Below, piece after piece: positions 56 to 46,716 of a stretch of 47,125 bases of DNA (within the stretch, counting starts at the first letter, position 1; every line of letters begins with the position of its first letter). The stretch spans positions 1-47,125 of the forward strand of contig NZ_BJYX01000026.1 of assembly GCF_007991735.1 (NCBI RefSeq), given 5' to 3'. The notes below the pieces were generated by a model. It saw nothing but the letters and a program-made list of their open reading frames with translations. It made no database searches and was not told the origin of the DNA. A program made the translations under genes and the position numbers. The DNA is from Terrabacter aerolatus. Lineage in GTDB: Bacteria > Actinomycetota > Actinomycetes > Actinomycetales > Dermatophilaceae.

Positions 56-3000
56 TCAGGGCGCGGTGCGCACCCGGACCACGGTCGACCAGGTGGAGTT
101 CCCGGCCAGGTTCACCGCCGCCGCCCGCACGTAGTACGTCGTCGCCGGTCGCAGGTTGGCCGCGGTGTAGCTGGTCGCGCCCGATGATGCGCTCACCGAC
201 CTCGAGCCCGCTCCGATGAAGCTCGTCGTACGACTGACCTGCACCAGGTAGCCGTCGGTCGGCACGGTCACCGGGATGCCCGGCGTGAGGGTGACGGGAA
301 GGCTGGTCCTCGTCGGCACGCCCGCCTTCACGCCCGGAGCGACCGGGGCCGCCATCGGCGGTGTCGGCGCGTTGGCCGACGCCGTGATGCCGACGGGTGC
401 GGAGTTGGGCGAGCTGACGGCGCCCACCTGGCCCGAGATCCGGTAGTAGTACGTCCCTCCGGGCGAGACGTTCGAATCCGCAAAGGTGGTGGGCAGTACG
501 CCTCCCCTCGGCGCAGTGAGTCGAGTGCTGTTCAGGTTTCCGACGAAGGCGGCGTTCGTGGCCCGTTGGACCGTGACGGCGGTGTAGGCCGCGGCGTTGG
601 TCCACTTGAGGGTCACGATGCCCCTGCCGGGCGTGCTGGCGAAGGTCGCCGTCAGACCGGTGGGCGCATCGACCGCCGCGGTCCTCACCGTGAACGTGCT
701 GCTCCAGCTGGAGTAGCCGCTCTTGGACTCGGACCGGAGCCGGTAGTAGTAGGTCGTCAGCTTGGTGAGGCTGGTGTCGACGTACGCCGGGCCGCCCGCA
801 GGCACGTTCATCGCCTTCACGCCGACCGTGAACGTCGAGTTCGTCGCCCGCTGCAGCGTCCAGTTGCTGACGACCGGGTTGCCCGATCCCGGCTGAGTCC
901 AGGCCAGTCCGACCGTCGTGGCCTGCACGCCGCCCGGCGAGCTCGTCAGACCGGTCGGCACCGGCGGCGCCGCGTTGACGACCATGGGTCGCATGAAGTC
1001 CATCTCCTCGTGGCTGAGCATGTGGCAGTGCCAGACGTACTCCCAGCCGTAGTCCTTCACCGAGTTCGGGACCGTGAGGGCCTGTCCGGTCAGCGGGTCG
1101 AACGTGCTGATCGGTGAGCCGATGGGCATGGACGGGTCGATCGGCCGGATCGAGTCGGGGAGCTTGAAGGGCAGGACCGGGATCTGTGGGCGCAGCGCCA
1201 CGATCGTGTCCTCCAGCGGGTGCATGAGGACGGTGTCCTTCCAGCCCACCTCACCCGGCTCCGGCGCGTACTTCGCGCCGTCCCAACCGACCCGGTTGAC
1301 GAGCTGCACGTCGAACAGGTGGAAGTGCACCGGGTGGCTGTCGACACCGTTGTGCGTGATCTTCCAGATCTGTGTGCCGTCACCGAGGGTTCCGATCTGC
1401 GCGCCGACCTGGTGTGGGTCGAGGACCTCGGTGGCCGGCTCGGCATAGCCGAAGGGCACCGTGGTCTGCACGTTGGCATTGGTGTTGGGCATCTCCGCAC
1501 CGAGCGTGGCGTTCATCCGACCCCAGGTGGGGTCGAACTCCTCCACGATCGCCTTGGGCTGCATGCCCATCGTCACCGCGCTGGTGCCCCCGACCGGGGT
1601 GAAGGTCTTCGTCGTGTCGGCGAGGTTGGTGTAGTTGTTCGAGGTCGTGCTGACGGTCGAGGTGCCGACCGCGGTCGGGGTCGTGACGCCGTTGCCGCTC
1701 GGGTCGAGCGACCAGTCGTAGCCCTGGGGAAGGCTCAGGCCGTTGTAGGCCAGCTGCGGGACGATCGGCGCCGGCTGGTCGGCCTGGTAGGCCGTCTTCA
1801 GCGCCGCCGCCACCGCTTCCGTGGTGGTGCCACCGCTCTTCCCGAGGGTGGAGTCCACCTGGAACTGCAGGACGGTACGGGTGTTCGGGCCGTAGCCGGG
1901 CTGCGTGGTGGGCGCGCCGCCGGAGGTCGTCTGGTCCGGGTCACCGGTGTAGTAGTCGTTGCGCGGGTCGATCGCCGGGTCGGCTGCCGGGGCGTCGTTG
2001 TAGAGCACCAGCTTGGCGCCGTCGGGCACCTTGCTGAAGTCGACGAGGACGTCGGCGCGCTCGGCCGGGGCCAGCATCAGGCCGTGGTGCAGCACGTCCA
2101 GCACGATGATGTTGCGCCGGTTGTACTCGTAGTCCAGCGGCTGCGCGCTGATCGTCGCCGGCGTCGGCAGGAACCCGCCGTCGTTGCCGATCTGCAGCAT
2201 GTCCGGTCCCGCGGCGTTGCACGCAGGAACGCCACCGTCGCGTCCGTCGTGTGGCCACGTGGCCTGCTGGGCCGCGGTGCAGCCGTTCGCCGGGTCCTTG
2301 AGAGCCGTCGGGGACGCGTCCATCATCGGCACCTCTCCGGCGTTCGCGTCGTTGAGGACGAGCCTGCCGGTGGTGGGGTCCTTCTTCCACATGTCCGCGT
2401 TGCTCTTGGCGTAGAACAGCGACAGGCTCAGGTGCCGGTCGTTGCTGCCGTTGAGGATCCGCAGCCGGTAGACCTTCTGTCCGACCTTCTGCGTCGGGTA
2501 GGGCGTGCCGTTGACCAGCATCGTGTCGAAGAACGACTCCATGGTCTGGGAGACGTTGCCGTCGGTCCCGTCGGCGTTCGGCCGGTCGAAGCCGGGGTTC
2601 TGGGCGTTCTCACAGGCGTTGCTCGCCGGGTCGCAGCTCGGGTCGGAGAGCGGGTTGGCGACCGGGTCGTTCTTCAGGCCGGTGAACGGCGGCCAGAACC
2701 AGGGTCCGTAGTCCCAGCGGCCCATCGCGTTCGCACCGTTGTCGTTGGTGGGGTTCTGGTTGGTCATGTAGACGTGCGGCATCCACAGGTTGCCCTTGCC
2801 GCCCCACTTGCTCTTCTGCCAGGTCGGGTCCTCGGCGGCCAGCTGGCTGTCGTTCGGGACGAAGGTCTTGTCCTGCAGGACCAGTGGAATGGTGTCCGCG
2901 CCGTCCTGGATGTCAGCCGTGGCCGACTCGAACGCCTTCTCCGCCGCGTCGTGGATGATGTACGGCGCCTCCTCGCCGGCATACACGTTCAGTCGCGTGA

Positions 3001-6187: not shown

Positions 6188-6211
6188 CCCGGCCCGACGG
6201 CATACGCGCAT

Positions 6212-8014: not shown

Positions 8015-8760
8015 CCGCAGTCCCCCTCGCCACCCCCCGGGTCCCGCGCAAGCGGCGCACGGACGCCGAGCTCAAGGCGATCGTCGACGACTTCAACGCC
8101 ACCCTCGCCGCGGACCCCGATCGCGAGCCGACGGCCGACGAGGTCGCGGCCTGGGCGGCCTTCCACTTCGACGGCACCCTCGCGGTGGCCTGCTCGATGG
8201 CCGATGCCGTGCTGCCGCACGTGGTCTCGCGCTTCGCCCCCGGCGTCGACGTGCTCTTCCTCGAGACCGGCTACCACTTCTCCGACACGATCGTCACCCG
8301 CGACATCGTCGCCGAGGACCTGCCGATCACCCTCGTCAACGTCATGCCCGAGCTGACCGTCGCCGAGCAGGACGAGAAGTACGGCGCGCGGCTCTACGAG
8401 CGCGACCCGGCCCTCTGCTGCCAGATGCGCAAGGTCGAGCCGCTCGCCCGGACCCTCCCGCTCTACGAGGCGTGGGTGACCGGGGTGCGCCGTGAGGAGT
8501 CGCCGACGCGGACCGACACCCCCCTCGTCACCTGGGACGACAAGAACGGCCTCGTCAAGATCAACCCGCTCGCCGCCTGGACGTTCGACGAGCTCCTGGC
8601 GTATGCCGGTGAGCACCAGGTCGAGGTCAACTCCCTTCTCTCCGACGGCTACCCGTCCATCGGCTGCGAGCCGTGCACCCGCCGGGTCGAGCCCGGCGAG
8701 GACCCCCGCGCCGGCCGCTGGGCCGGCTTCGCCAAGACCGAGTGCGGACTCCACACATGA
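8011..8760 (+). CDS. cysH: Adenylylsulfate (APS) reductase
   Basis: Predicted 249-residue thioredoxin-dependent reductase converting APS to sulfite and AMP. The [4Fe-4S] cysteines that mark the APS-reducing type are present: Cys136-Cys137 (CCQMRKVEPL) and Cys219/Cys222 (IGCEPC). The C-terminal ECGLH carries catalytic Cys245. RRxE-type and TGVRREES substrate-binding segments are visible. GTG start, with GAAGGAG eight bases upstream, overlapping the sulfite reductase stop by four bases. An APS-type enzyme explains why no cysC (APS kinase) is present. Its stop overlaps cysD by four bases. Confidence 0.94.
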   Translation: MTAVPLATPRVPRKRRTDAELKAIVDDFNATLAADPDREPTADEVAAWAAFHFDGTLAVACSMADAVLPHVVSRFAPGVDVLFLETGYHFSDTIVTRDIVAEDLPITLVNVMPELTVAEQDEKYGARLYERDPALCCQMRKVEPLARTLPLYEAWVTGVRREESPTRTDTPLVTWDDKNGLVKINPLAAWTFDELLAYAGEHQVEVNSLLSDGYPSIGCEPCTRRVEPGEDPRAGRWAGFAKTECGLHT

Positions 8761-9746
8761 CGACCACCACCCCGACCACCCGGATTCCTGCCGACGACGG
8801 CGCCACGGGTGACACGGCATACGCCCGCTCCGGCGCGAAGAGCGCCGACGACCGGCGCCTGACCCACCTCGACGCGCTCGAGGCGGAGGCGATCCTCGTC
8901 ATCCGCGAGATGGCCGGCGAGCTCGAGCGCCCGGCGCTGCTCTTCAGCGGCGGCAAGGACTCCGTCGTCATGCTCCACCTCGCGACGAAGGCCTTCTGGC
9001 CGGCGCCGATCCCGTTCCCGGTGCTGCACGTCGACACGGGGCACAACTTCCCCGAGGTGCTCGCCTACCGCGACGAGACGGTCGAGCGGCTCGGCCTGCG
9101 GCTCGTCGTCGCGAGCGTGCAGGACTACATCGACGACGGCCGGCTCCGTGAGCGCGCCGACGGCACCCGCAACCCGCTGCAGACCGTGCCGCTGCTCGAC
9201 GCCATCAACGACAACCGTTTCGACGGCGTCTTCGGCGGCGGCCGGCGCGACGAGGAGAAGGCGCGCGCCAAGGAGCGCATCGTCAGCCTCCGCGACGAGT
9301 TCGGCCAGTGGGACCCCAAGAACCAGCGGCCCGAGCTGTGGAACCTCTTCAACCCCAAGCACCGTCCGGGCGAGCACGTGCGCGTCTTCCCGATCAGCAA
9401 CTGGACCGAGGTCGACATCTGGCGCTACATCGACCGCGAGGACATCCCGCTCGCACCGCTCTACTACGCCCACGAGCGCGAGGTCTTCCGGCGCGACGGC
9501 ATGTGGCTCGCCGTCGGTCCCGTGAGCCGGCCGCGTGACGACGAGCCGGTCGAGACACGGCTCGTGCGCTACCGCACCGTCGGCGACATGTCGTGCACGG
9601 GGGCCGTCGAGTCCCCGGCCACGACCAACGCCGAGATCGTCGTCGAGGTCGCCGCCTCGACCCTGACCGAGCGCGGCGCCACGCGCGCCGACGACCGGAT
9701 CTCCGAGGCCGCCATGGAGGACCGCAAGAAGGAGGGATATTTCTGA
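8757..9746 (+). CDS. cysD: Sulfate adenylyltransferase small subunit
   Basis: Predicted 329-residue ATP pyrophosphatase-family subunit which, with CysN, activates sulfate to APS. The PP-loop SGGKDS is near residues 63-68, followed by LHVDTGHNFPE and the late block RRDEEKARAKER typical of CysD. The first 25 residues are a variable, Thr-rich extension. The ATG overlaps the cysH stop (ATGA), and the cysD stop overlaps the cysN start by one base (TGATG), so the subunits are translationally coupled in the usual D-N order. GGAGGG before 9746 serves cysN. Confidence 0.95.
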   Translation: MTTTTPTTRIPADDGATGDTAYARSGAKSADDRRLTHLDALEAEAILVIREMAGELERPALLFSGGKDSVVMLHLATKAFWPAPIPFPVLHVDTGHNFPEVLAYRDETVERLGLRLVVASVQDYIDDGRLRERADGTRNPLQTVPLLDAINDNRFDGVFGGGRRDEEKARAKERIVSLRDEFGQWDPKNQRPELWNLFNPKHRPGEHVRVFPISNWTEVDIWRYIDREDIPLAPLYYAHEREVFRRDGMWLAVGPVSRPRDDEPVETRLVRYRTVGDMSCTGAVESPATTNAEIVVEVAASTLTERGATRADDRISEAAMEDRKKEGYF

Positions 9747-11113
9747 TGTCCACCACCACGCCGCTCCTCGACCCGGCGGCTGTCGCCGGTGCCGCTCGCG
9801 GCACCCTGCTGCGGCTCGCGACCGCCGGCTCGGTCGACGACGGCAAGTCGACCCTCGTCGGCCGCCTGCTCCACGACACGAAGTCGGTGCTGTCCGACCA
9901 GCTCGCGGCCGTCGAGCGCGTCTCGCGGGACCGCGGCCTCACGGCGGCCGACCTGGCCCTCCTCACCGACGGCCTGCGCGCCGAGCGCGAGCAGGGCATC
10001 ACCATCGACGTCGCCTACCGCTACTTCGCGACGGCGAACCGCTCGTTCGTCCTCGCCGACTGCCCCGGGCACGTGCAGTACACGCGCAACACCGTCACCG
10101 GCAGCTCGACGGCCGACGTCGTCGTGCTCCTCGTCGACGCCCGCAAGGGCGTGCTCGAGCAGACCCGTCGCCACCTCGCCGTGACGGCGCTGCTCCGGGT
10201 GCCGCACGTCGTCGTCGCGGTCAACAAGATCGACCTCGTCGACTTCTCGCAGGAGGTCTACGACCGCGTCGAGGCCGAGGTGCAGGCGGTGGCCCGCGAG
10301 CTCGGCGTCGTCGATGCCACCGCCATCCCGGTCAGCGCCCTCGACGGCGACAACGTCGCAGCGCGTTCGCCGCGCACCCCGTGGTACGACGGGCCCAGCC
10401 TCCTCGAGCTGCTCGAGGCGCTGCCCCCGTCGGACGACCCCGCGAACGAGTCCTTCCGCCTACCGGTGCAGCTCGTCATCCGCCCCCAGGGTGCGGCCCG
10501 TGACGAGGCCCATCGCGACTACCGGGGGTATGCCGGCCAGGTGGCCTCGGGCGTCGTGCGCGTCGGTGACGAGGTCGTGGCCCTTCCCTCGGGTCGCCGC
10601 ACGACCGTCACCGGCATCGACCTCGGCGAGCGGTCGCTCGACGAGGCGTTCGCGCCGCAGTCGGTGACGCTGCGCCTCGCCGACGAGATCGACATCTCGC
10701 GCGGTGACGTCATCGCCTCGGCCGACGACGCGCCGGAGCCGACCCAGGACATCAAGGCCGTCGTCTGCTGGCTCGGTGACGCGCCGCTGCGCCCGGGTCA
10801 GCGGCTGCTCCTCAAGCACGGGTCCCGCACGGTGCAGACGGCGGTCCGCACGCTCGACGGGGTGCTCGACCTCGACGACCTGCACACCGTCCCGTCAGAA
10901 GCCTTGTCCCTCAACGACATCGGTCTGGTGACCCTGCGCCTCGCTGCGCCGGTCCCGGTCGAGAACTACTCGACCTCCCGTCGCGGCGGTTCCTTCCTGC
11001 TCATCGACGCCCACGACGGTCGCACCGTCGCCGCCGGCATGGTGGGCGCGACGCTGCCCACCGCGGCGCCGGCCCCCACCGAGCCCGAGGGTGACGAGGT
11101 ATGGGAGATCTGA
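9746..11113 (+). CDS. cysN: Sulfate adenylyltransferase large subunit (GTPase)
   Basis: Predicted 455-residue EF-Tu-like GTPase that couples GTP hydrolysis to APS formation by CysD. Motifs: P-loop GSVDDGKST at about residues 28-36, DCPGH near 105 and NKID near 160, followed by the two beta-barrel domains. It ends after domain III with no C-terminal APS-kinase (CysC) fusion, which agrees with the APS reductase upstream. The final bases overlap the next gene by 13. Confidence 0.94.
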   Translation: MSTTTPLLDPAAVAGAARGTLLRLATAGSVDDGKSTLVGRLLHDTKSVLSDQLAAVERVSRDRGLTAADLALLTDGLRAEREQGITIDVAYRYFATANRSFVLADCPGHVQYTRNTVTGSSTADVVVLLVDARKGVLEQTRRHLAVTALLRVPHVVVAVNKIDLVDFSQEVYDRVEAEVQAVARELGVVDATAIPVSALDGDNVAARSPRTPWYDGPSLLELLEALPPSDDPANESFRLPVQLVIRPQGAARDEAHRDYRGYAGQVASGVVRVGDEVVALPSGRRTTVTGIDLGERSLDEAFAPQSVTLRLADEIDISRGDVIASADDAPEPTQDIKAVVCWLGDAPLRPGQRLLLKHGSRTVQTAVRTLDGVLDLDDLHTVPSEALSLNDIGLVTLRLAAPVPVENYSTSRRGGSFLLIDAHDGRTVAAGMVGATLPTAAPAPTEPEGDEVWEI

Positions 11114-12324
11114 AACCGGCCCTGCCGGTCGTCCTCGACCTGACCGGCCGGCTCGTCGTCGCCGTCGGGGGCGGCCCGGTGTCCGCGCGGCGCGTCCGGG
11201 CCTTCCTCGACGAAGGCGCGGTCGTGCGCGTCGTCGCCCCCTGGCTGTGCGAGGACCTGCGCGACCTGGCCGTGGCCGGCCGGGTCGAGTGGCTCGAGCG
11301 TGACTACGCCGGGCCCGCCGACCTCGACGGTGCGTGGTTCGCCCACACCGCGACGGGCAAGCCGTCCGTCGACCGCGAGGTCGCCGCGGACGCCGAGGCG
11401 CTCCGCGTCTGGTGCGTCGACGCCACCGAGGCCGCCGGCACCACGGCGAGTGTCACCGCCCGCGCCGACGTGACGACCCCCGACGGCCGGGTCACCGTGG
11501 CCACGTATGCCGCGGGCGACCCCGGCCTCGCCGTGACGGTCCGCGACGGGGTCGAGCGGGCGCTCGTGTCGGGCACGCTCGACCTGCGCCGCACCCGCAC
11601 GCACGGGCGTCGCGGCTGGGTGGCGCTCGTCGGTGGCGGCCCCGGCATCGACGGTCTGCTCACCGCCCGCGGCCACGAGCTGCTCGCCTCGGCCGACGTC
11701 GTCGTCGTCGACCGCCTCGCCCCCCGGTCGGTCGTCGACCGGCTGCCCGCCTCGGTCCGGGTCATCGACGTCGGCAAGACGCCCGGCCACCACCCGGTGC
11801 CCCAGTCGCGGATCAACGACATCCTCGTCGAGGAGGCGCAGCGGGGCCTCGGCGTCGTCCGGCTCAAGGGCGGTGACCCCTACGTGCTCGGTCGCGGAGG
11901 CGAGGAGCGCGACGCGTGCGAGGCACACGGCATACGCGTCGAGGTCGTGCCCGGCGTGACGAGCGCGGTGAGCGTGCCTGCGGCTGCAGGGATCCCGGTC
12001 ACCCACCGTGGCGTCGCGAGAGGCTTCACGGTCGTCACGGGCCACGAGGACATCCCGGTGCTGCCGACCGGCGGCGACCACACGCTCGTGCTGCTCATGG
12101 GGGTGACGCAGCTGGCGCGCACGACCGAGCTGCTCGCCCTGCACGGCCGCTCGCCCGACTGCCCCGTCGCGGTGGTCGAGCGCGGCTTCGCCCCCGACCA
12201 GCGCACCACGGTCGGCACGGTCGCCACGATCGCCGACCTCGCGCGGGAGCGCGGCGTCAGAGCCCCGGCCGTCGTGGTCGTCGGCGACGTCGTGCGGCTG
12301 GGCCCCGACTGGCAGCAGCGCTGA
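11101..12324 (+). CDS. cysG: Sirohaem synthase-like: precorrin-2 dehydrogenase fused to uroporphyrinogen-III C-methyltransferase
   Basis: Predicted 407-residue bifunctional enzyme supplying sirohaem for the sulfite reductase at the head of the operon. The N-terminal NAD-binding part (about 1-160) has VVAVGGGPVSARR near residue 20. The C-terminal SAM-dependent methyltransferase starts near 175 with VALVGGGPG and includes RLKGGDPYVLGRGGEE near 253 and PGVTSAVSVPAAAGIPVTHR, both diagnostic. The N-terminal part is somewhat shorter than in enterobacterial CysG, so ferrochelatase activity should not be assumed. The ATG at 11101 lies 13 bases inside cysN. Last gene of the operon. Confidence 0.9.
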   Translation: MGDLKPALPVVLDLTGRLVVAVGGGPVSARRVRAFLDEGAVVRVVAPWLCEDLRDLAVAGRVEWLERDYAGPADLDGAWFAHTATGKPSVDREVAADAEALRVWCVDATEAAGTTASVTARADVTTPDGRVTVATYAAGDPGLAVTVRDGVERALVSGTLDLRRTRTHGRRGWVALVGGGPGIDGLLTARGHELLASADVVVVDRLAPRSVVDRLPASVRVIDVGKTPGHHPVPQSRINDILVEEAQRGLGVVRLKGGDPYVLGRGGEERDACEAHGIRVEVVPGVTSAVSVPAAAGIPVTHRGVARGFTVVTGHEDIPVLPTGGDHTLVLLMGVTQLARTTELLALHGRSPDCPVAVVERGFAPDQRTTVGTVATIADLARERGVRAPAVVVVGDVVRLGPDWQQR

Positions 12325-13389: not shown

Positions 13390-14622
13390 ATGCCCGAGAC
13401 GCCACACCCCGAGAGTGCCCCCCGCCTCCCGGAGACCGAGGCCCGACGCCTCGATGACGCGGCGACCCGGCTCGTCGACGTCGCCGCCCACTCGCTCGAC
13501 CCGGCGGGCGGCTTCGGCTGGCTCGACGACGCGGGACGGCTCACGCCGGGGCGCCCCGCCGAGACGTGGGTGACGTGCCGCATGACGCACACCTTCGCCC
13601 TGGCCCACCTGCACGGCGACGCCCGCGCCGCCGACCTCGTCGACCACGGCGTGCAGGCGCTGCGCACGACGCTGCACGACGACCGCCACGGTGGCTGGAT
13701 GTCCGTCGCCGGCCGGCCGGACGGCGGCAAGGAGGCGTATGCGCACGCGTTCGTCGTCCTGGCCGCGGCCTCCGCCACGGGGACGGGCCACCCCGACGGA
13801 CGGGCGTTGCTCGACGACGCGCTCGGCGTCATGGTCGACCACTTCTGGGACGAGGACGAGGGCCTCGTCGTCGACCAGTGGGACGCGTCGTGGACCCGGC
13901 TCGACCCCTACCGCGGCGTCAACGCCAACATGCACACGGTGGAGTCGTTCCTCGCCGCGGCGGACGCGACGGGCGATCGCGTCTGGCTCGACCGCGCGAC
14001 ACGGGTGCTGACCCGCGTCGTCGACGGCTTCGCGCGGTCGCACGACTGGCGCCTGCCCGAGCACTTCGACGAGCAGTGGCGGCCCATGCTCGACCACAAC
14101 GTCGACAACCCGGGGCACCCGTTCCAGCCGTACGGCGTGACGATCGGCCACCTCATCGAGTGGTCGCGCCTGTCGCTGCACGTCGCGACGGCGCTCGGCG
14201 ACGCGGCGCCGGCCTGGCTGCCCGGGGCGGCGCGCGACCTCTACGCGGCCGGCGTGCAGCGCGGCTGGGACGTCGACGGCGCCCCCGGCTTCGTCTACAC
14301 GACCGACTTCCACGACCGTCCGGTCGTGCGCGAGCGCATGCACTGGGTCGTCGCCGAGGCGATCGCGGCCGCCTGGACGCTGCACCGGGCGACGGGTGAG
14401 GCCGCCTACGCCGAGGACTACGACCGCTGGTGGGCGTATGCCGTCCGCCACCTCGTCGACGCCCGTGACGGTTCGTGGGTCCACGAGCTCGACGCGCACA
14501 ACGAGCCGTCGAGCGTCGTGTGGTCCGGCCGGCCCGACGTCTACCACGCCTACGAGGCCACGGTGCTGCCGCTGATGCCGGAGGCGGCGAGCTTCATCGG
14601 GGCGGCGCGCGGCGGCTGGTGA
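13390..14622 (+). CDS. AGE-family aldose-ketose isomerase/epimerase, probably D-mannose isomerase
   Basis: A 410-residue (alpha/alpha)6-barrel protein of the N-acylglucosamine 2-epimerase family, which includes mannose isomerases and YihS. Family blocks are visible: TCRMTHTFALAHLHG near residue 60, NANMHTVESFLAA near 178, PYGVTIGHLIEWSRL near 245, HWVVAEAIAAAWTLHRATG near 318 and VWSGRPDVYHAYEATVLPL near the end. The conserved His and Arg residues expected in the barrel are present. The alpha-mannosidase gene begins 59 bases downstream, so mannose-to-fructose conversion is the most economical role. Sulfoquinovose isomerase is an alternative, but no sulfoglycolysis gene is nearby. GAGG precedes the ATG. 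Confidence 0.85.
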   Translation: MPETPHPESAPRLPETEARRLDDAATRLVDVAAHSLDPAGGFGWLDDAGRLTPGRPAETWVTCRMTHTFALAHLHGDARAADLVDHGVQALRTTLHDDRHGGWMSVAGRPDGGKEAYAHAFVVLAAASATGTGHPDGRALLDDALGVMVDHFWDEDEGLVVDQWDASWTRLDPYRGVNANMHTVESFLAAADATGDRVWLDRATRVLTRVVDGFARSHDWRLPEHFDEQWRPMLDHNVDNPGHPFQPYGVTIGHLIEWSRLSLHVATALGDAAPAWLPGAARDLYAAGVQRGWDVDGAPGFVYTTDFHDRPVVRERMHWVVAEAIAAAWTLHRATGEAAYAEDYDRWWAYAVRHLVDARDGSWVHELDAHNEPSSVVWSGRPDVYHAYEATVLPLMPEAASFIGAARGGW

Positions 14623-25299: not shown

Positions 25300-25356
25300 A
25301 CCGGCGACGCCGACGACGGCATACGACGGGTGGGCCGGGCGCGGCTCGGCCGACCG

Positions 25357-30504: not shown

Positions 30505-31521
30505 GTGAAGAAGATCGGATTCCTCTCCTTCGGTCACTGGAACCCCTCCCCGCACTCGGGGACGCGGTCGGCGGCCGACGCCCTGCTCCAGTCCATCGAC
30601 CTCGCGGTCGCCGCCGAGGAGCTCGGTGCCGACGGGGCCTACTTCCGGGTGCACCACTTCGCCCGCCAGCTCGCGTCGCCGTTCCCGCTGCTTGCCGCGG
30701 TCGGCGCTCGCACGAGCCGCATCGAGATCGGCACCGGGGTCATCGACATGCGCTACGAGAACCCGCTCTACATGGCCGAGGACGCCGGCGCCGCCGACCT
30801 CATCTCCGGTGGACGACTCCAGCTCGGCATCAGCCGTGGGTCACCCGAGCAGGTCGTCGACGGCTTCCGCTACTTCGGCTACGAGCCGACCGACGGCGAC
30901 CACGCAGCCATGGCGCGCCAGCACACCGAGGTCTTCCTCGAGGTCCTGTCCGGCAAGGGCTTCGCCGAGCCGAACCCGCGCCCGATGTTCCCCAACCCGC
31001 CCGGCCTGCTCCGCATCGAGCCGCACGCGCCGGGGCTGCGCGACCGCATCTGGTGGGGCGCCGGCAGCCGGGCCACGGCCGAGTGGACGGCCGAGCAGGG
31101 GATGAACCTCATGAGCTCGACCCTCCTCACCGAGGACACCGGGGTCCCCTTCCACCAGCTGCAGGCCGAGCAGATCCAGCGCTTCCGCGACGCGTGGACG
31201 GCCGCCGGCCACGAGCGCGAGCCGCGGGTGTCGGTGAGCCGCAGCGTCTTCCCCATCGTCAGCGACACCGACCGCGCCTACTTCGGCCGCGAGTCGGCGA
31301 GCCAGGACCAGGTCGGCATCATCGACGGTGGCACCGCCCGCTTCGGCAAGACGTATGCCGGTGAGCCCGACCAGCTCGTCCGTGACCTCGCGGAGGACGA
31401 GGCGGTCGCCGCCGCCGACACCCTGCTCATCACCGTGCCCAACCAGCTCGGCGTCGACTACAACGCCCACGTCATGGAGAGCCTCCTGACGCACGTGGCC
31501 CCCGAGCTCGGCTGGCGCTGA
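30505..31521 (+). CDS. LLM-class flavin-dependent oxidoreductase
   Basis: A 338-residue luciferase-like TIM-barrel protein using FMN or F420. Family blocks: MKKIGFLSFGHW at the start, ADGAYFRVHHFARQLASPFPLLAAVGARTSRIEIGTGVIDMRYENPLYMAEDAGAADLISGGRLQLGISRG (about residues 43-113) and WWGAGSRATAEWTAEQGMNL (about 183-202). The substrate is unknown. GTG start without a clear ribosome-binding site. It is divergent from the molybdoenzyme gene and ends at a convergent hairpin. Confidence 0.88.
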   Translation: MKKIGFLSFGHWNPSPHSGTRSAADALLQSIDLAVAAEELGADGAYFRVHHFARQLASPFPLLAAVGARTSRIEIGTGVIDMRYENPLYMAEDAGAADLISGGRLQLGISRGSPEQVVDGFRYFGYEPTDGDHAAMARQHTEVFLEVLSGKGFAEPNPRPMFPNPPGLLRIEPHAPGLRDRIWWGAGSRATAEWTAEQGMNLMSSTLLTEDTGVPFHQLQAEQIQRFRDAWTAAGHEREPRVSVSRSVFPIVSDTDRAYFGRESASQDQVGIIDGGTARFGKTYAGEPDQLVRDLAEDEAVAAADTLLITVPNQLGVDYNAHVMESLLTHVAPELGWR

Positions 31522-32169: not shown

Positions 32170-33168
32170 ATGACCACCTCCCACTCCTCGACCGCCGGTG
32201 CCTCGGGGGCGCCGGCGGTCGAGCTGCGTTCGCTCGTCAAGACCTTCCCTCCCCGACGCGGCTCGCACGACTCCGAGGTCCGTGCCGTCGACGGCGTCGA
32301 CCTGCGCATCGAGCCCGGCGAGGTCGTCGCCTTCCTCGGCCCCAACGGGGCCGGCAAGACGACGACGCTCGACATGGTCCTGGGGCTCACCGACCCGACG
32401 AGCGGCTCGGCCGAGGTCTTCGGCCGCCGTCCGCGACAGGCGGTCGTCACCGGGTCCGTCTCGGCGGTGCTCCAGACGGGGGGCCTGCTGCGCGACCTCA
32501 CGGTCCGCGAGACCGTGCGCATGATCGCCTCGACGTATGCCGTCAGCTCCCCGGTCGACGAGGTCATCGACCGCGCCGGGCTGAGGTCGCTCGCCGACCG
32601 TCGCGTGTCCAAGTGCTCCGGCGGTGAGCAGCAGCGTCTGCGCTTCGCCCTGGCGCTGCTGCCCGACCCGCGGCTGCTCGTCCTCGACGAGCCGACGGCG
32701 GGCATGGACGTGTCGGCGCGCCGGGACTTCTGGGACACGATGCACGCCGACGCGAGCGCGGGCCGCACCGTCGTCTTCGCGACGCACTACCTCGAGGAGG
32801 CCGACGCCTTCGCCGACCGGATCGTGCTCATCGCCGGGGGCCGCATCGTCGCGGACGGGACGACGGCCGAGATCCGGGCGCAGGCCAGTGGCCGCACCGT
32901 CTCGGCGACCCTGCCGCCCGGGTCGGTGGCCGAGTCCGTCGCGCGGCTGCGGGTCGTCGACGGCGTCCGGGACGTCGAGGAGCGCGGCAGCCGGGTCGTC
33001 GTGACGGCGGCCGACTCCGACGCGGTCGCCCGGCTGCTCCTCCTCGATCTCGGCGGCACCGACCTCGAGATCGTCACCGCCGGCCTCGAGCAGGCCTTCA
33101 TGACCCTGACCGGCGACTCCCGCGACGCGGGCGTCGTCCTGGCCCACGACGAGGAGCTCGCCCGATGA
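32170..33168 (+). CDS. ABC-2 type exporter, ATP-binding protein
   Basis: A 332-residue ATPase. Walker A GPNGAGKTTT is near residues 57-66, the Q-loop is VLQTGG, the signature CSGGEQQRLRFA is near 152, Walker B is LLVLDEPTAGMD and the switch His is in FATHYLEEAD. The C-terminal 100 residues are an accessory domain typical of DrrA/NatA-like exporters. GGAGAGTGGAG precedes the ATG. It forms a four-gene operon with permease, histidine kinase and response regulator, each overlapping the next by four bases. Confidence 0.93.
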   Translation: MTTSHSSTAGASGAPAVELRSLVKTFPPRRGSHDSEVRAVDGVDLRIEPGEVVAFLGPNGAGKTTTLDMVLGLTDPTSGSAEVFGRRPRQAVVTGSVSAVLQTGGLLRDLTVRETVRMIASTYAVSSPVDEVIDRAGLRSLADRRVSKCSGGEQQRLRFALALLPDPRLLVLDEPTAGMDVSARRDFWDTMHADASAGRTVVFATHYLEEADAFADRIVLIAGGRIVADGTTAEIRAQASGRTVSATLPPGSVAESVARLRVVDGVRDVEERGSRVVVTAADSDAVARLLLLDLGGTDLEIVTAGLEQAFMTLTGDSRDAGVVLAHDEELAR

Positions 33169-33911
33169 ACGCCACCTTCACGATGCTCGAGATGCGCCGC
33201 ATCACCCGGGACTGGGCCGGCATGTTCTTCACGGCCGTCCTGCCGGCCTTCTTCTACCTCATCTTCGGTGCGACGGTCAGTGCCAAGGACGCCAGCATCG
33301 GCAACGGCAACGTCGCGATGTACGTCATGATCAGCATGGCGGCCTACGGCGCCGTCACGGCCACGACGAGCATCGGCGGCAACGCCGCGGTCGAGCGTCA
33401 GCAGGGCTGGGGTCGCCAGCTCGGCCTCACGCCGCTGGCCGACTCCTCCTACATCGCCATGAAGGCCCTGATCGCGATGACCGTGGCCGCGGTGCCCGTC
33501 GTGCTGACCTTCACGCTCGGGGTCCTCACTGGGGCGCGGGGCTCCGCACAGGCGTGGGCCCTCAGCGCCGTGCTCGTGCTCGTCGGCTCGTCGGTCTTCG
33601 CGCTCTACGGCCTGCTCATCGGCACGGCGTTCCGCTCCGAGGCGGCCGTGGGTGCGGCGGCGGGCACGCTCGTCATCTTCGCCTTCCTCGGCAACCTCTT
33701 CATCCCGCTGTCGGGCGCGCTGCTCTCCTTCGCGAAGCTGACCCCGCTCTACGGGTATGCCGCCCTCGCCCGGTACCCGCTCACGGAGGGCTTCCTCCCC
33801 GACGGATCGCGCGACCCGCTGTGGCTGCCGATCGTCAACGTGCTGGCCTGGCTCGCGATCTTCGGCGCGCTCGCCGTGGTGCTCGTACGCCGCGGCCGGG
33901 AACGCCAGTGA
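33165..33911 (+). CDS. ABC-2 type exporter, permease
   Basis: A 248-residue membrane protein with about six hydrophobic segments, including AGMFFTAVLPAFFYLIFGA, MYVMISMAAYGAVTAT, LIAMTVAAVPVVLTFTLGVLTG, SAVLVLVGSSVFALYGLLIG, AAAGTLVIFAFLGNLFIPLSG and NVLAWLAIFGALAVVLV. The layout fits the ABC2_membrane family (NatB/YhaP/DrrB-like). ATGA overlap with the ATPase gene and GTGA overlap with the kinase gene. The substrate is unknown; the DesK/DesR-type pair suggests membrane or antimicrobial-lipid stress. Confidence 0.9.
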   Translation: MNATFTMLEMRRITRDWAGMFFTAVLPAFFYLIFGATVSAKDASIGNGNVAMYVMISMAAYGAVTATTSIGGNAAVERQQGWGRQLGLTPLADSSYIAMKALIAMTVAAVPVVLTFTLGVLTGARGSAQAWALSAVLVLVGSSVFALYGLLIGTAFRSEAAVGAAAGTLVIFAFLGNLFIPLSGALLSFAKLTPLYGYAALARYPLTEGFLPDGSRDPLWLPIVNVLAWLAIFGALAVVLVRRGRERQ

Positions 33912-34996
33912 CCGAGTCACCGGGACGCAACCCGTGGGAGCGCTACGGGTGGGTGGTGCGGGGCGTCTGGCTCGTCTTCCTCGTCTTCCCCGTCCTCGAC
34001 CTCGTCACGACGCCACGCCCGGTGTGGCAGGTCGTCGTGGGCCTGGCGCTCGTCGTCGTCTTCGCCGTCGCCTACGTCCGGGGCTCCTCGCACCTCGAGC
34101 GCACCTCCCGCCGCGGACTGCCCACGGTGCGCGGGGCCACGGTCTGTCTCGCGGTCCTGCTCGGCTGCACGGTCGGCTCCGCGCTGCTCATCGGGGCGGG
34201 AAGCCTCGGCTTCCTCCCCTTCGTCGTGGCGTTCGGGATGTTCGCGCTGCCGATCCTCCCGGCGATCGGCATCGGCGTGGCAGCGACGCTCGTGGCCGGG
34301 GCGGCCGCTGTCGTCACCGACCCGGGCGAGGGCACGTGGAGCGTCGCGATCATCGTCTTCGCCGTCGGGGTCATGACCGGTGGCGTCCGGCTCGTCGCCG
34401 ACCGCGGCGAGCAGTACGAGCGGATGTCACGCGACCTCGCCATCGTCGAGGAGCGCGAGCGCGTGGCGCGCGACGTGCACGACGTGCTGGGCCACTCGCT
34501 CACGGTCGTCACCGTCAAGGCCGAGCTCGCCGAGCGCCTCGTCGACCTCGACCCGGAGCGCGCCAAGGCCGAGCTGGCGGAGATCCAGGCGCTGAGCCGC
34601 CAGGCGCTCGCCGAGATCAGGGCGACCGTCGGAGGCCTGCGGGTGGCTCGTCTCGGCGACGAGCTGGCCTCTGCCAGGACGGCGCTCGCCGGGGCGGGCA
34701 TCGAGGCCCACGTGCCGGACGACCCCGGGGCCGTCGACCCCCGCCACCGCACGGTGCTGGCCTGGGTGCTGCGCGAGGCGACGACCAACGTGGTACGCCA
34801 CAGCGACGCCGACACGTGCTGGGTCGAGGTCGGGACGAACCGCCTCACGGTGCGCGACGACGGACGCGGCATCGACGGGCGACCCGAGGGAAACGGCATA
34901 CGCGGGCTGCGTGAGAGAGTCGGTGCCGCGGGAGGCCGGCTCTCGCTCGAGACCGGCCCCGAGGGCCATGGGACCGTCCTGGAGGTGACGCTGTGA
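33908..34996 (+). CDS. Sensor histidine kinase, DesK/NarX-like (HisKA_3)
   Basis: A 362-residue kinase. About five or six membrane segments fill residues 15-165 with almost no extracytoplasmic domain, suggesting sensing within the membrane. The phosphoacceptor is His191 in RERVARDVHDVLGHSLT. The ATPase domain has REATTNVVRHSDAD and VRDDGRGIDG, then GIRGLRERVGAAGGRL. GTG start overlaps the permease stop. It pairs with the next gene. Confidence 0.92.
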   Translation: MTESPGRNPWERYGWVVRGVWLVFLVFPVLDLVTTPRPVWQVVVGLALVVVFAVAYVRGSSHLERTSRRGLPTVRGATVCLAVLLGCTVGSALLIGAGSLGFLPFVVAFGMFALPILPAIGIGVAATLVAGAAAVVTDPGEGTWSVAIIVFAVGVMTGGVRLVADRGEQYERMSRDLAIVEERERVARDVHDVLGHSLTVVTVKAELAERLVDLDPERAKAELAEIQALSRQALAEIRATVGGLRVARLGDELASARTALAGAGIEAHVPDDPGAVDPRHRTVLAWVLREATTNVVRHSDADTCWVEVGTNRLTVRDDGRGIDGRPEGNGIRGLRERVGAAGGRLSLETGPEGHGTVLEVTL

Positions 34997-36102: not shown

Positions 36103-36133
36103 TAGCCGTGCGGGGCCCGGCGGTCGTATGCCG

Positions 36134-36811: not shown

Positions 36812-36950
36812 GTCAATCTCCGTAAGGGGTGAGGTGCTGCCCGAGATGCGACATGTCCAGTCTCGTCCCTCACGCCCGACGGCGCCCGCGTTTCGTCGCG
36901 ACCCGCCCGACGGCATACGCCGGTCCGTGGCACGGCCCGGGGAGGACCGA

Positions 36951-36963: not shown

Positions 36964-38193
36964 GTGAACATCATCTTCGTGGAGCCGTCGTTCCCCGCGA
37001 ACCAGCGTCGGTTCGTGCACGCGCTCGCCTCGGTGGGCGCGAACGTCTACGGGATCGGCGAGAGCGACGAGGCGCACCTCGGTGACGAGGTGCTCGGTGC
37101 CCTCCGCGGCTACTACCGCGTCGGGTCGGTGACGAACGTCGACCAGATGATCGAGGCCGTCCGCTACTTCCAGGGGAAGGTGTGGATCGACGCGCTCGAG
37201 GCGACCGTCGAGGCCCACACGATGCCGGCGGCCCAGGTGCGCGAGGCGTGCGGCATCCCCGGCACGAGCGTGCGCACGACGTGGCTGTGCCGCGACAAGC
37301 CGTCGATGAAGGAGGCCCTGCGCCAGGCGGGCGTGCCCACCGCGGCGAGCGCGGCCGTCGACTCGGCCGACGAGGCGCGGGCCTTCGCAGAGCGCGAGGG
37401 CTACCCGCTCATCCTCAAGCCGCGCGCGGGCGCCGGCGCGCAGGGCACGGTCCGCGTCGACAGCGACCACGACCTCGAGCAGGCGCTCCAGGGCTATGCG
37501 CGCGAGGGCGCGTCCTCCATCGCCATCGAGGAGTTCGTCGAGGGTCACGAGGGCTTCTACGACACGATCAGCCTCGACGGCCGCGTCGTGCACGACTGGG
37601 CGACGCACTACTACCCCAACGTCCTCGAGGCGATGCGCCACCGCTGGATCTCGCCGCAGTTCGTCACGACCAACCGCATCGACGAGCCGGGCAACGCGTT
37701 CTACGCCGAGGTGCGCGACCTCGGGCGCCGGGTCATCGAGGCTCTCGGCATCGAGACGTCGGCCACGCACATGGAGTGGTTCTACGGCCCGAAGGGCTTG
37801 AAGTTCAGCGAGATCGGGGCGCGGCCGCCCGGCGTCGGCGCGTGGGACGTCTACTCCGCCGCCAACGAGGTCGACGTCTACCGCGAATGGGCGCACGTCA
37901 TCACCCACCGTGCCCCCGAGCAGCAGATGAAGCGGACGTATGCCGCGGGCATCGTCGCGCTGCGCCCTGACCGCGACGGGTCGGTGACCGGCTACTCCGG
38001 CATCGACGAGATCCAGTCCCGCTACGGGGAGTGGGTCATCGACGGCCACTTCCCACCCGTCGGGCACGGCACCCAGGCGGTCGAGGCGGGCTACATGGCC
38101 AACGCGTGGGTGCGGCTGCGCCACCCCGACTTCGACACGGTCCGGGCGATGCTCGACGACGTCGGTCGCACGATCCGCATGCACGCGGGCTGA
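36964..38193 (+). CDS. ATP-grasp ligase of unknown substrate
   Basis: A 409-residue ATP-grasp enzyme; such proteins join a carboxylate to an amine through an acyl phosphate. The N-terminal pre-ATP-grasp domain starts VNIIFVEPSFPANQRRFVHALASVGANVYGIGE. The ATP-binding region has CRDKPSMKEALRQAGVPTA near residue 110 and YPLILKPRAGAGAQGTVRV near 148. EEFVEGHEGFYDTISLDG near 190 follows, and the Mg-binding KFSEIGARPPG is near 281. It resembles carnosine-synthase/PurK-type ligases in layout, but no substrate can be named. First gene of a five-gene cluster with two hydrolase types and an amidotransferase. GTG start with leaderless promoter. Confidence 0.87.
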   Translation: MNIIFVEPSFPANQRRFVHALASVGANVYGIGESDEAHLGDEVLGALRGYYRVGSVTNVDQMIEAVRYFQGKVWIDALEATVEAHTMPAAQVREACGIPGTSVRTTWLCRDKPSMKEALRQAGVPTAASAAVDSADEARAFAEREGYPLILKPRAGAGAQGTVRVDSDHDLEQALQGYAREGASSIAIEEFVEGHEGFYDTISLDGRVVHDWATHYYPNVLEAMRHRWISPQFVTTNRIDEPGNAFYAEVRDLGRRVIEALGIETSATHMEWFYGPKGLKFSEIGARPPGVGAWDVYSAANEVDVYREWAHVITHRAPEQQMKRTYAAGIVALRPDRDGSVTGYSGIDEIQSRYGEWVIDGHFPPVGHGTQAVEAGYMANAWVRLRHPDFDTVRAMLDDVGRTIRMHAG

Positions 38194-41041: not shown

Positions 41042-41772
41042 CGGGACGCCCCTTCCTGCTCCTGACCTCGCGGGTCGACGACGCGCTGGCGGCGCAGGAG
41101 CGGGCTGCGTTCCTGCGCCTGACCGGCCTCGGCGACGACGCCGTCGTGCACGTGCGCCTCGAGCAGGGACCCGTCCTGCCCCTCGACGTGACGGCATACG
41201 CCGGGGTCGTGCTGGGCGGCAGCCCGTTCACGGTGAGCGAGCCCGACTCGGCCAAGTCGGCGACCGAGCGCCGCGTCGAGGGCGAGCTGACCGTGCTCGT
41301 GCGCGAGCTCGTCGAGCGGCAGGTGCCCTACCTCGGGCTCTGCTACGGCGTCGGCGCGACGAGCCTGGCCCTCGGCGGGGTCGTCGACCGCACCTACGGC
41401 GAGCCCGTCGGCACGACGACGGTGCGGATCACCGACGCGGGCCGAGACGACCCCGTCTTCGGCGCGCTGCCCGACACCTTCGCGGCCTTCGTCGGGCACA
41501 AGGAGGCCGCGACCGAGCCGCCCCCGGGCGCCGTCGTCGTCGCGACGAGCGACGCCTGCCCGGTGCAGGCCTACCGGGTCGGGTCGTGCGCCTGGGTGAC
41601 GCAGTTCCACCCCGAGCTCGAGGTGGAGACGTTCGTCGAGCGGATCCGGGCGTACGCCCACCTCGGCTACTTCCGACCGGACGAGCAGGACGCGATCATC
41701 GACGTCGTCCGCGCCGCCGACGTCTCGGCGGCCCACGACGTGCTGCGCCGGTTCGTCGCCGCGTTCCGCTGA
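41038..41772 (+). CDS. Class I glutamine amidotransferase
   Basis: A 244-residue GATase1-type protein. The catalytic Cys is in PYLGLCYGVGATSLALGG near residue 103, and the His-Glu pair is in VTQFHPELEVETF near 184. It is free-standing like GuaA-related GATases, so it may release ammonia from glutamine for a partner, or hydrolyse gamma-glutamyl bonds. The ATP-grasp ligase four genes upstream is a natural partner. Last gene of the cluster. Confidence 0.87.
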   Translation: MTGRPFLLLTSRVDDALAAQERAAFLRLTGLGDDAVVHVRLEQGPVLPLDVTAYAGVVLGGSPFTVSEPDSAKSATERRVEGELTVLVRELVERQVPYLGLCYGVGATSLALGGVVDRTYGEPVGTTTVRITDAGRDDPVFGALPDTFAAFVGHKEAATEPPPGAVVVATSDACPVQAYRVGSCAWVTQFHPELEVETFVERIRAYAHLGYFRPDEQDAIIDVVRAADVSAAHDVLRRFVAAFR

Positions 41773-44892: not shown

Positions 44893-46716
44893 ATGCGTCG
44901 ACGTCTCGTCCGCCCCACGGTGGTGGCGGCGGTCGGCGTGCTCGCGCTGGCCACGGCGGCCTGCACGACCGGCGCCACCGACGCGTCCACGCCCGTGGCC
45001 ACCGACGGGACGACTCCCGGCGTCGCCACGACAGGGCCCACCCCCACGACGCCGGCGGCGCCGCTCGTCGTCGGGGCGGTCTTCGACCACTCGACGCTCG
45101 ACCCGACGCGCCAGTTCGACCGCAGTGGGGCCCTGCTGACGCACTCGCTCTACGAGACGCTGACGACCCTCGACCCCGACGACCCGACGAAGGTCGTGCC
45201 CGGGATGGCCGAGTACACCCTCTCGCCCGAGGGTCGCTGGTTGACGCTGCGGCTGCGCAAGGGGCTCGTGTTCTCCGACGGCACCCCGGTGACGACCGAC
45301 GACGTCATCTTCAGCCTCGAGCGCGCCAAGGGCCTGACGGGGCCGGCGGCGTCGATCATCGGCACGGTCTCGACGACGAAGGTCGACGACCGCACCTTCA
45401 CCCTCAGCTCGACCGGGTCGAACTTCGCGCTGCCCGCGATCCTCGCCAACCCGGCCTTCGGCATCCTCAACTCGGCCGCGGTCAAGGCGCACGGCGGGAC
45501 CATCGGCCCCGGTGACACCGCCGGCGGCTACCTGTCGCAGCACTCGGCGGGGTCCGGTCCCTACGTCATCGAGAGCGTGCGCGGGTCGTCCGAGGTGCGG
45601 CTCAAGGCCAACCCCCTGTGGACGGGGGCCAGGCCGGCCTTCCCCGAGATCGTCCTTCGCAACCTCGACGCCAGGAGCCAGCTCGCCGAGCTGCGGGCCG
45701 GACGCATCGACATCGCCCTCGACCTCTCGCCGAACCAGGCCGAGGGGGTCGACGCCGGCACCCAGACCTCGGCGGTCACGGTGACGACGATGCGCTCGAG
45801 CTCGCTCGTCTACCTCACCCTCGGCCGCGACAAGACCCTCAACGCGTGGACGGCCAACCCCGACTTCGAGGAGTCGGTGCGTCGCGGCCTCGACCGTGAG
45901 GCGCTGTCCCGGGTCGCCGAGGGCTCGACGCCGGCGGCCGGCCTCATCCCGGCCGGCATCGTCGGAGCGCTCGAGGACCTCGCGCCGACGCCCACACCGT
46001 CGGCGACCGGAGGGGCGGCAGGCACCGGGGGCACCGGGGCGACCGGCACGCCGGGTCCCGCGACCTCCCCGCCCACGTCTCCCCCTTCGTCGACGGCCAC
46101 CCCGACGACGCCCGGTCCGTCCATGACGACGGGCGCCAACGGCATACCGACTCCGGTGGTGACCCTGCCGCTCGTGCCGGCCCGCGACCTCGAGGCCGCC
46201 AGGGCGGCGTTGCGCCGGTCGGGCTACCGGGGGCAGCCGATCCCGCTGTCGTATGCCGCCGACCTGCCCATCCAGGGCATCCCGACGACGGCGCTCGCGA
46301 CGGCCGTGCGCTCGCAGCTCGCCCAGGTGGGCATCAAGGTGCAGCTCAACCCGGCGCCGGCGGCCCAGGCGATCGCCGCCTACCGCTCGGGGCGGACTGC
46401 CTTCAGCCTGTGGAGCTGGAGCCCGGACTACCCGGACCCCGAGAACTACCTCGCGTTCGCGCCGGGTGAGCTCGTCGGCTCTCGGGCCGGCTGGGCCCGC
46501 GGCACCGACCAGGTCATCGACGACCTCACCGACGCCGCGCGCTCCTCGGTGGGCGACAACCGGGCCGGGGCGTATGCCGCGTGGCAGCTCGCGATGAACG
46601 AGCGCAGCCCCTTCGTCCCGCTCCTGCAGCCCTCGACCCGTTTCGCGAGCGGCGACCGCGTGACGGCGGTGCCGGGCAACCCGGTCTGGACCCTCGACCT
46701 GGCCCGCATCCGCTGA
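44893..46716 (+). CDS. Peptide/nickel ABC transporter substrate-binding lipoprotein (SBP_bac_5) with internal low-complexity insert
   Basis: A 607-residue lipoprotein with lipobox Cys24 (LATAAC) and a Thr/Pro-rich linker to about residue 55. The family 5 solute-binding fold is clear: LYETLTTLDPDDPTKVVPGMAEYTLSPEGRWLTLRLRKGLVFSDGTPVTTDDVIFSLER (about 93-150), AGGYLSQHSAGSGPYVI, and SLWSWSPDYPDPENYLAF near 500. Residues about 364-424 are an unusual Gly/Thr/Pro/Ser insert inside the binding domain. No permease or ATPase gene is adjacent, so it is an orphan here; it may serve a remote transporter. GAAGGAAG lies before the ATG. Confidence 0.88.
   Translation: MRRRLVRPTVVAAVGVLALATAACTTGATDASTPVATDGTTPGVATTGPTPTTPAAPLVVGAVFDHSTLDPTRQFDRSGALLTHSLYETLTTLDPDDPTKVVPGMAEYTLSPEGRWLTLRLRKGLVFSDGTPVTTDDVIFSLERAKGLTGPAASIIGTVSTTKVDDRTFTLSSTGSNFALPAILANPAFGILNSAAVKAHGGTIGPGDTAGGYLSQHSAGSGPYVIESVRGSSEVRLKANPLWTGARPAFPEIVLRNLDARSQLAELRAGRIDIALDLSPNQAEGVDAGTQTSAVTVTTMRSSSLVYLTLGRDKTLNAWTANPDFEESVRRGLDREALSRVAEGSTPAAGLIPAGIVGALEDLAPTPTPSATGGAAGTGGTGATGTPGPATSPPTSPPSSTATPTTPGPSMTTGANGIPTPVVTLPLVPARDLEAARAALRRSGYRGQPIPLSYAADLPIQGIPTTALATAVRSQLAQVGIKVQLNPAPAAQAIAAYRSGRTAFSLWSWSPDYPDPENYLAFAPGELVGSRAGWARGTDQVIDDLTDAARSSVGDNRAGAYAAWQLAMNERSPFVPLLQPSTRFASGDRVTAVPGNPVWTLDLARIR

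Follow-up and report, generated by a model that had tools for sequence, protein, structure and literature searches.

The DNA analysed here (the window) is the whole 47,125-nucleotide stretch of contig NZ_BJYX01000026.1 from Terrabacter aerolatus. Its gene content is ordinary, including genes for sulphite reductase, an EF-Tu-like GTPase, alpha-mannosidase and two-component and ABC systems. Part of the window, searched against plasmids, returned 227 records, all of them distant and none above 80% of the query. Scattered among these genes is a short word, the 8-mer GTATGCCG, which we propose to be the DNA uptake sequence (DUS) of a natural transformation system in the Dermatophilaceae. The window contains 29 exact copies, 14 on the plus and 15 on the minus strand, matching the first-pass annotation, which had described 29 dispersed copies on both strands. 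In 100 dinucleotide shuffles of the window, the word occurred 0.68 times on average and three times at most. Each of the 29 GTATGCC 7-mers has G as its next base, and of the 33 occurrences of GTATG or CATAC, 29 lie inside GTATGCCG; that annotation had likewise noted the constant eighth base and that nearly every GTATG or CATAC belongs to the word.

By our own gene calls, 24 of the 29 sites are coding. Fifteen read TAT-GCC (Tyr-Ala): 2977..2984 (-) in the gene at 56-4735(-), with the codons GTG TAT GCC GGC; 8601..8608 (+) in 8011-8760(+); 10528..10535 (+) in 9746-11113(+); 11505..11512 (+) in 11101-12324(+); 14436..14443 (+) in 13390-14622(+); 16631..16638 (+) in 14682-17711(+); 19138..19145 (-) in 18746-19348(-); 27330..27337 (-) in 26530-27369(-); 29192..29199 (-) in 28809-30275(-); 31353..31360 (+) in 30505-31521(+); 32535..32542 (+) in 32170-33168(+); 33755..33762 (+) in 33165-33911(+); 37938..37945 (+) in 36964-38193(+); and both 46251..46258 (+) and 46572..46579 (+) in 44893-46716(+). 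Five read GCA-TAC (Ala-Tyr): 8815..8822 (-) in 8757-9746(+), 16351..16358 (-) in 14682-17711(+), 17987..17994 (+) in 17774-18715(-), 21495..21502 (-) in 20336-21604(+) and 41192..41199 (-) in 41038-41772(+). The remaining four read GGC-ATA (Gly-Ile): 11928..11935 (-) in 11101-12324(+), 23652..23659 (-) in 22690-23685(+), 34894..34901 (-) in 33953-34996(+) and 46140..46147 (-) in 44893-46716(+). The word thus forces rare codons, ATA in these last four and GCA in the previous five; the first-pass annotation had listed all of these except 17987, giving minus-strand positions for the 7-mer, one base inside the 8-mer. It had also placed copies between genes, and five sites are indeed intergenic or at a gene edge: 6198..6205 (-), 22661..22668 (+), 25317..25324 (-), 36126..36133 (+) and 36911..36918 (-).

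The excess extends to the whole genome (4.42 Mb in 62 contigs), which contains 2,163 copies of GTATGCCG, 1,072 and 1,091 on the two strands, against 195 of the reversed word used as a control (90 and 105). In 447 kb of this genome, including the window, a count against a Markov model, which had been suggested as a check, gave 246 copies where an order-3 model expects 11.6. A maximal-order model ranked a shifted word, TATGCCGT, as the top 8-mer, and GTATGCCG was not among the words listed; this model is uninformative here because shorter words within GTATGCCG are enriched too. All eight positions of the word are strict. Of the 246 sites, 150 are preceded by C and 131 followed by T, so that the word with the preferred flanks of the window's genus is CGTATGCCGT; positions further out on either side are not strongly conserved. 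In the Ornithinimicrobium genome G133 (loci L172-L181) the preceding base is instead G in 71% of cases, compared with C in 61% in the window's genome. Since flank preference differs by genus, sub-dialects may exist.

To describe the distribution we use Dermatophilaceae in the GTDB sense; at NCBI its members are spread over Intrasporangiaceae, Ornithinimicrobiaceae, Dermacoccaceae and other families. The genus of the window is Terrabacter or the genus that corresponds to it in GTDB. Our labels denote the window's genome (G000), one genome each of the genera Knoellia (G087) and Ornithinimicrobium (G133), and genomes such as Terrabacter sp. MAHUQ-38 (G006), a Humibacillus metagenome-assembled genome (G026, genus g9), Janibacter anophelis (G062, g27), Janibacter melonis (G101, g36), Phycicoccus jejuensis (G165, g47), Intrasporangium flavum (G107), Intrasporangium calvum PheN6 (G050, g18), Pedococcus bigeumensis (G148, g44), Knoellia flava (G081, g30), Flexivirga endophytica (G039, g14), Kytococcus aerolatus (G090, g32) and Ornithinimicrobium tianjinense (G144, g42). 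At least 390 copies of GTATGCCG occur in 107 of the 186 family genomes and 30 of the 53 genera, including all nine genomes of the window's genus, with a maximum of 4,724 in G108. A further 13 genomes are intermediate (153 to 361 copies) and 66 are low (149 or fewer). In the 107 high genomes, the ratio of the word to its reversed control ranges from 2.5 to 70, with a median of 11.8. Outside the family, none of 272 genomes from an order-wide sample (n=297) exceeds 177 copies; the genome with 177 has 135 copies of the control, and some other outsiders reach about three times a low control. The comparison with related genera proposed by the first-pass annotation therefore shows a word restricted to one family. 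When presence of the word is mapped onto a ComEC tree built from 73 named loci and the window genome's own protein, 8 changes of state are needed, compared with 22.7 when shuffled. The simplest reading is that the ancestor had the word and that it was repeatedly lost or changed, although the root of this tree is not fixed.

Some related genera that lack GTATGCCG carry other words. Counting k-mers in Janibacter DNA revealed CGAAGGGG/CGAAGGGGG as an alternative, and we counted CGAAGGGG in 80 chosen family genomes together with GGATGCCG, which is one base from GTATGCCG. CGAAGGGG occurs 886 to 1,615 times per strand (reversed control 48 to 79) in all ten g27 and g36 genomes counted (7/7 from g27, a genus with 16 in the family list, and 3/3 from g36), while the other 70 genomes contain 38 to 209 per strand and none is enriched. 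GGATGCCG reaches 1,805 to 2,258 copies per strand in G025 and G026 (g9), G042 and G043 (g15) and G178 (g51). A third g15 genome, G044, holds two words, with 609/608 copies of GTATGCCG and 1,104/1,091 of GGATGCCG on the two strands, and genus g15 therefore looks like a switch in progress. G045, also of g15 and counted for GTATGCCG alone, is similar to G044 in that word (566/623). The other 74 genomes have 111 to 674 copies of GGATGCCG per strand, the highest being the Phycicoccus genome G167. We rejected GGATGCCG as a word of Intrasporangium flavum, where it is not enriched (2 copies in 40.8 kb; the 418/417 genome-wide are background).

The status of a further word, GTACGCCG, is less clear. It is enriched, up to 2,125 copies per strand, in g35 (3/3 genomes), g3 (G010 and G011, more weakly G012), part of g5 (G020 and G021, with G018 and G019 not enriched), G022, G023 and G092. 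It is also among the commonest changed forms of GTATGCCG in alignments, and the change is synonymous in the Tyr-Ala frames. Possible readings are a fourth dialect, a remnant of an uptake word that has lost its intergenic copies by decay, or some other kind of element. Its carriers (genomes G096-G098, G010, G011, G020-G023 and G092; loci L210-L221 and L250-L253) include genera with variable content (g3, g5 and g33). Two other candidates, GTACGGCG in G092 and CGATGCGG in Kytococcus, were not accepted as dialects, being depleted between genes. Samples of Phycicoccus G169, Mobilicoccus G104, G009, G019, G027, G029, G046 and G183 gave no clear alternative word. We also dropped the idea of a core (A3-G5-G8) common to all words, which rested on words that are not established and on 3/8 matches in CGAAGGGG, near chance. 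Separately, GGTTGCCCT is repeated in G098 (g35; L218-L221), with 20 copies where 0.6 are expected in three of four stretches, and is perhaps a dispersed repeat family.

The words are not evenly divided between genes and the gaps that separate them (coding statistics leave out the 64% G+C genomes G019 and G027). In the window's genome, GTATGCCG has a density of 1.49 per kb in intergenic DNA and 0.44 per kb inside genes, a ratio of 3.4; the ratio is 2.4 in G087 and 1.4 in G133. The alternative words give 3.8 (G178) and 1.7 (G025) for GGATGCCG, and 3.8 (G100) and 2.6 (G060) for CGAAGGGG. The density of GTATGCCG also depends on gene orientation, with 3.12 copies per kb between convergent genes, 1.64 between tandem and 0.69 between divergent genes in the window's genome, and 2.11, 1.34 and 0.97 in G087. 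Where two copies of GTATGCCG lie at most 80 bp apart, they form an inverted pair in 36 of 40 cases (all loci examined, a few pairs being at homologous places in related loci). Such inverted pairs often fall within 150 bp after a stop codon: 8/10 in the window's genome, 7/10 in G087, 3/4 in G178, 3/5 in G100 and 3/10 in G060.

We also investigated conservation between species, comparing how often the word is identical in the aligned partner with the same count for pooled shuffled words (ordered species pairs, which are not independent, from the comEC neighbourhood only). GTATGCCG was conserved in 196/246 cases in Knoellia (shuffled words 210/738), 176/220 in Terrabacter (686/1,193), 87/165 in Pedococcus (257/843), 10/17 in Flexivirga (30/108) and 25/69 in Ornithinimicrobium (76/348), and CGAAGGGG was conserved in 72/143 cases in Janibacter (494/1,498).

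Of the possible explanations for such a word, a methylation or restriction target kept frequent, like the highly iterated palindrome HIP1 of cyanobacteria, is unlikely, although it survives best among the alternatives to a DUS. A changed methyltransferase specificity could bring other words with it. However, restriction sites tend to be avoided, and a methylation target sits less well with the inverted pairs at gene ends. HIP1 does occur in thousands of copies (5,648 in Synechocystis, according to the part of PMC1939737 consulted), but it is a palindrome and the words here are not.

A site that organises the chromosome, bound by a nucleoid, segregation or DNA-translocase protein in the manner of FtsK-orienting polar sequences (KOPS), matS or Noc-binding sites (NBS), is very unlikely. 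Conservation would suit such a site, as would the spacing of GTATGCCG: along 360 kb of contig C1 its copies are spread more evenly than in random sets (coefficient of variation 0.84 vs 0.99, with 4 of 1,000 random sets as low). Yet orientation is balanced on both arms of the two complete genomes (22/27 and 39/34 in G087, 31/28 and 24/26 in G133), on the assumption, not borne out by GC skew in the sampled stretches, that the origin lies near the contig start. Single 20-kb stretches (n=20, 10 from each of these genomes) show no strand bias either (lowest p 0.08). The origin-to-terminus check that the first-pass annotation had suggested thus points to balance. For the word to change completely between genera, a cellular system would moreover have to exchange its sites by the thousand, and neither a methylated word nor a nucleoid-protein site predicts such a change together with inverted pairs at gene ends.

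Gap lengths bear on two stretches of the window that the first-pass annotation had called sparse (1-6 kb) and empty (41.2-46.1 kb). Both exist, but their interpretation as signs of recent acquisition has no statistical support: gaps above 4 kb make up 6.7% of those in the 447 kb, compared with 10% expected, and since long gaps are not commoner than random, the empty stretches alone do not show recent acquisition. The longest gaps in the 360 kb fall in a cluster of flagellar genes and in a region where most genes are of unknown kind. The largest, 10.5 kb, coincides with the flagellar genes (identified by Pfam) and is no longer than chance allows. This cluster (L037-L038, contig C1, 128-154 kb) contains gaps of 10.5, 4.6, 5.1 and 5.4 kb and was perhaps acquired later.

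A Chi-like site regulating a recombination nuclease of the RecBCD, AddAB or AdnAB type, another option in the first-pass annotation, is highly improbable. GTATGCCG resembles one in being 8 bp long, non-palindromic and dispersed at about one copy per 2 kb. However, the occurrence of RecC, in 36 of 80 genomes, is unrelated to that of the motif (this concerns RecBCD only; AddAB and AdnAB were not searched). The window's genome, G049 (Intrasporangium) and four Knoellia genomes have the motif and no RecC match, while the Janibacter genomes G060 and G072 have RecC and no motif. This distribution and the missing strand bias, by replichore and in single stretches, contradict a RecBCD Chi, and neither inverted pairs after stop codons nor an excess between genes is expected of one.

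It is barely credible that the word serves chiefly as a transcription terminator or is a small mobile repeat. Three inverted pairs taken as examples form hairpins with energies of -28.6 to -45.6 kcal/mol, each better than all 200 of its shuffles, and the frequent position of inverted pairs after stop codons suits a terminator. Most sites are inconsistent with it, however: there are only 12 close pairs (10 inverted) among the 246 sites, 178 of the 246 are coding, and conservation is not strong beyond the flanking base on either side. Termination is at most a secondary function. A bias for the amino-acid pair Tyr-Ala can practically be set aside, as the first-pass annotation had held: 145 of the 178 coding sites in the 447 kb do fall in the Tyr-Ala or Ala-Tyr frame (105 TAT-GCC and 40 GCA-TAC), but 33 lie in other frames and the density between genes refutes it.

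The best explanation is a DUS, another suggestion of the first-pass annotation, which is supported, beyond density and strand balance, by the family restriction, the other words in relatives, the excess between genes, the inverted pairs and the conservation. The signal is real, strong and family-wide, and most likely marks DNA for uptake. We put at roughly 0.78 the probability that GTATGCCG works like a DUS, in a natural transformation system that spans this monoderm family and forms dialects. The data show that the word is over-represented, conserved and restricted to the family, that other words occur in relatives, how copies are laid out in the genome, and that ComEA, ComEC and Tad genes are present; its role in uptake and each step of the binding mechanism proposed below we infer.

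Genes of the kind expected for such a system are widespread. ComEC was found in 180 of the 186 family genomes, with and without GTATGCCG, and comEA in 75 of 80 named comEC loci, again both with and without the word; the window's genome has open frames for both, as well as a Tad locus. Each of 80 genomes has two or more matches to T2SSE, the family to which TadA belongs, and the Flp pilin of one conserved Tad locus was found in 30/30 genomes searched (weakly in G111). By contrast, MshEN (PF05157), a domain of the type IVa (T4a) pilus ATPase, was found in 3 of 80 genomes, two of them above the cut-off, and a classical T4a pilus is therefore not the common machinery. In the actinobacterium Micrococcus luteus, tad genes, ComEA and ComEC are reported as needed for transformation in the part of PMC8467076 consulted. 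As side observations, tblastn detected neither comEA nor the beginning of comEC at L126, L131 and L132 (loci of Janibacter massiliensis, J. terrae and Ornithinimicrobium cerasi), a possible loss or divergence. In addition, the palindrome AAGTACTT occurs about once per comEC locus in the Terrabacter, Pedococcus, Janibacter and Kineosphaera/Mobilicoccus/Kytococcus sets and is perhaps a conserved regulatory site.

We suggest the following mechanism. Something on the cell surface would bind the word in free double-stranded DNA; the likeliest binder would be a tip protein or minor pilin of the Flp/Tad pilus, encoded beside the TadA-TadB-TadC-Flp-TadE-TadF genes. The pilus would carry the bound DNA to ComEA, and ComEC would move one strand inside for RecA-dependent recombination. 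Because DNA with the word would be preferred in uptake, alleles gaining a copy would spread, and copies would pile up by molecular drive where coding permits. A shift in the preference of the receptor would then shift the word genome-wide, producing dialects such as GGATGCCG and CGAAGGGG.

We lean somewhat, at little better than even odds, towards a more specific history. The system would have arisen independently in monoderm actinobacteria before the Dermatophilaceae radiated, with a Flp/Tad component rather than a T4a pilus as the recogniser. Specificity would have switched repeatedly (between GTATGCCG, GGATGCCG, CGAAGGGG and perhaps GTACGCCG), rewriting thousands of sites and splitting the family into gene-exchange communities, with g15 caught in mid-switch.

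Several results weigh against interpreting GTATGCCG as a DUS. None of its 24 single-mismatch forms lies above the 95th percentile of same-composition words in the 447 kb. The five lowest ratios to the reversed word, 2.5 to 3.1-fold, all come from g4 and g18 genomes (G013, G014, G017, G049 and G050), where enrichment is weak because the reversed control is itself high. The layout is not uniform: the Ornithinimicrobium genome G133 has only its weak excess between genes, no close pairs and no excess between convergent genes (0.78, 0.71 and 0.83 copies per kb between convergent, tandem and divergent genes), and GGATGCCG has a between-gene to in-gene ratio of 0.6 in two Humibacillus loci (41 kb). 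In Serinicoccus, GTATGCCG is conserved in 10/22 cases, hardly above the shuffled controls (82/213). GTACGCCG has ratios of 0.1 to 0.4 and is enriched in several frames; being depleted between genes, it is not established as a working dialect.

The machinery offers no distinction either. Genomes in which we found no word, such as Phycicoccus, have ComEC, ComEA and Tad genes just as the carriers do, and the presence of these genes therefore does not discriminate. Within 10 kb of comEC, no gene family marks carriers among 48 positive and 27 negative named loci, the strongest associations being three families found in 6 to 8 negative and no positive loci (for example at L069, Phycicoccus sonneratiae). 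Where genes were called, positive and negative genomes have the same architecture at their Tad loci (13 class-2, 7 class-3), and comparing Flp, TadE and TadF of three word groups by eye showed no diagnostic difference. No gene in the Tad and com loci was found to track the word as a sequence-specific, ComP-like receptor might. Finally, no transformation assay for Dermatophilaceae was found in the literature searched.

If GTATGCCG is indeed a DUS, self-preferring DNA uptake would have evolved more than once, with one case in Gram-positive actinobacteria and perhaps with a Tad pilus. The family would offer a natural experiment on how such a code changes, with sister genera using different words and one genome holding two, and its repeated losses and switches would make the question of drive or function directly testable. 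Natural competence would be predicted in some 30 Dermatophilaceae genera, opening a route to their genetics; according to the part of PMC9123174 consulted, the family also includes phosphorus accumulators of wastewater. We found no actinobacterial, Gram-positive or monoderm uptake sequence in the open-licence literature (preprints excluded), and no paper there describing the other words of the family; no paper containing GTATGCCG itself was relevant by title among the matches listed. As far as we found, uptake sequences have so far been described only from Neisseriaceae and Pasteurellaceae.

Among known systems, Chi, HIP1 and KOPS share with GTATGCCG the property of being short, highly repeated words; KOPS, however, are oriented towards the terminus, whereas GTATGCCG has no orientation bias. 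Transformation in Micrococcus luteus is likewise actinobacterial and involves the same kinds of machinery genes, but the part of its description consulted (PMC8467076) does not mention an uptake sequence. The uptake signal sequence (USS) of Pasteurellaceae comes closer. In the part of PMC1939737 consulted, it has no orientation bias, an excess in non-coding DNA and about 10% of its copies as inverted repeats, and GTATGCCG shares the first two features and likewise has a minority of inverted repeats. The word and the host are different, and GTATGCCG lacks a halo of mismatched forms, whereas graded enrichment of such forms was reported by Bakkali for the sequences of Haemophilus influenzae and Neisseria gonorrhoeae (PMC1939737, consulted in part). 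This enrichment has been reported for DUS and USS and is not essential to their function.

The Neisseriaceae DUS differs from the Dermatophilaceae words in several respects. The hosts here are monoderm actinobacteria with 62-77% G+C in the named loci, and they mostly lack a T4a-type PilB and have a Tad/Flp locus instead. These words share no invariant CTG core, and CGAAGGGG has no clear relation to the others. The string ATGCCGT also occurs in the neisserial DUS12, probably by chance. Neisserial DUS comprise eight dialects with up to 5,918 copies and a conserved CTG core, and some family members have none (Frye et al. 2013, PMC3630211, consulted in part); in both families, short non-palindromic words occur in thousands of copies, form dialects by branch and are missing from some members. 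Neisserial DUS also occur as inverted repeats between genes that form hairpins (PMC2346458, in the part consulted), and the layout of GTATGCCG, with its intergenic excess and inverted pairs at gene ends, is that of the neisserial and Haemophilus sequences (PMC2346458, PMC1939737). The dialects of the Neisseriaceae DUS are the closest parallel to the words described here.

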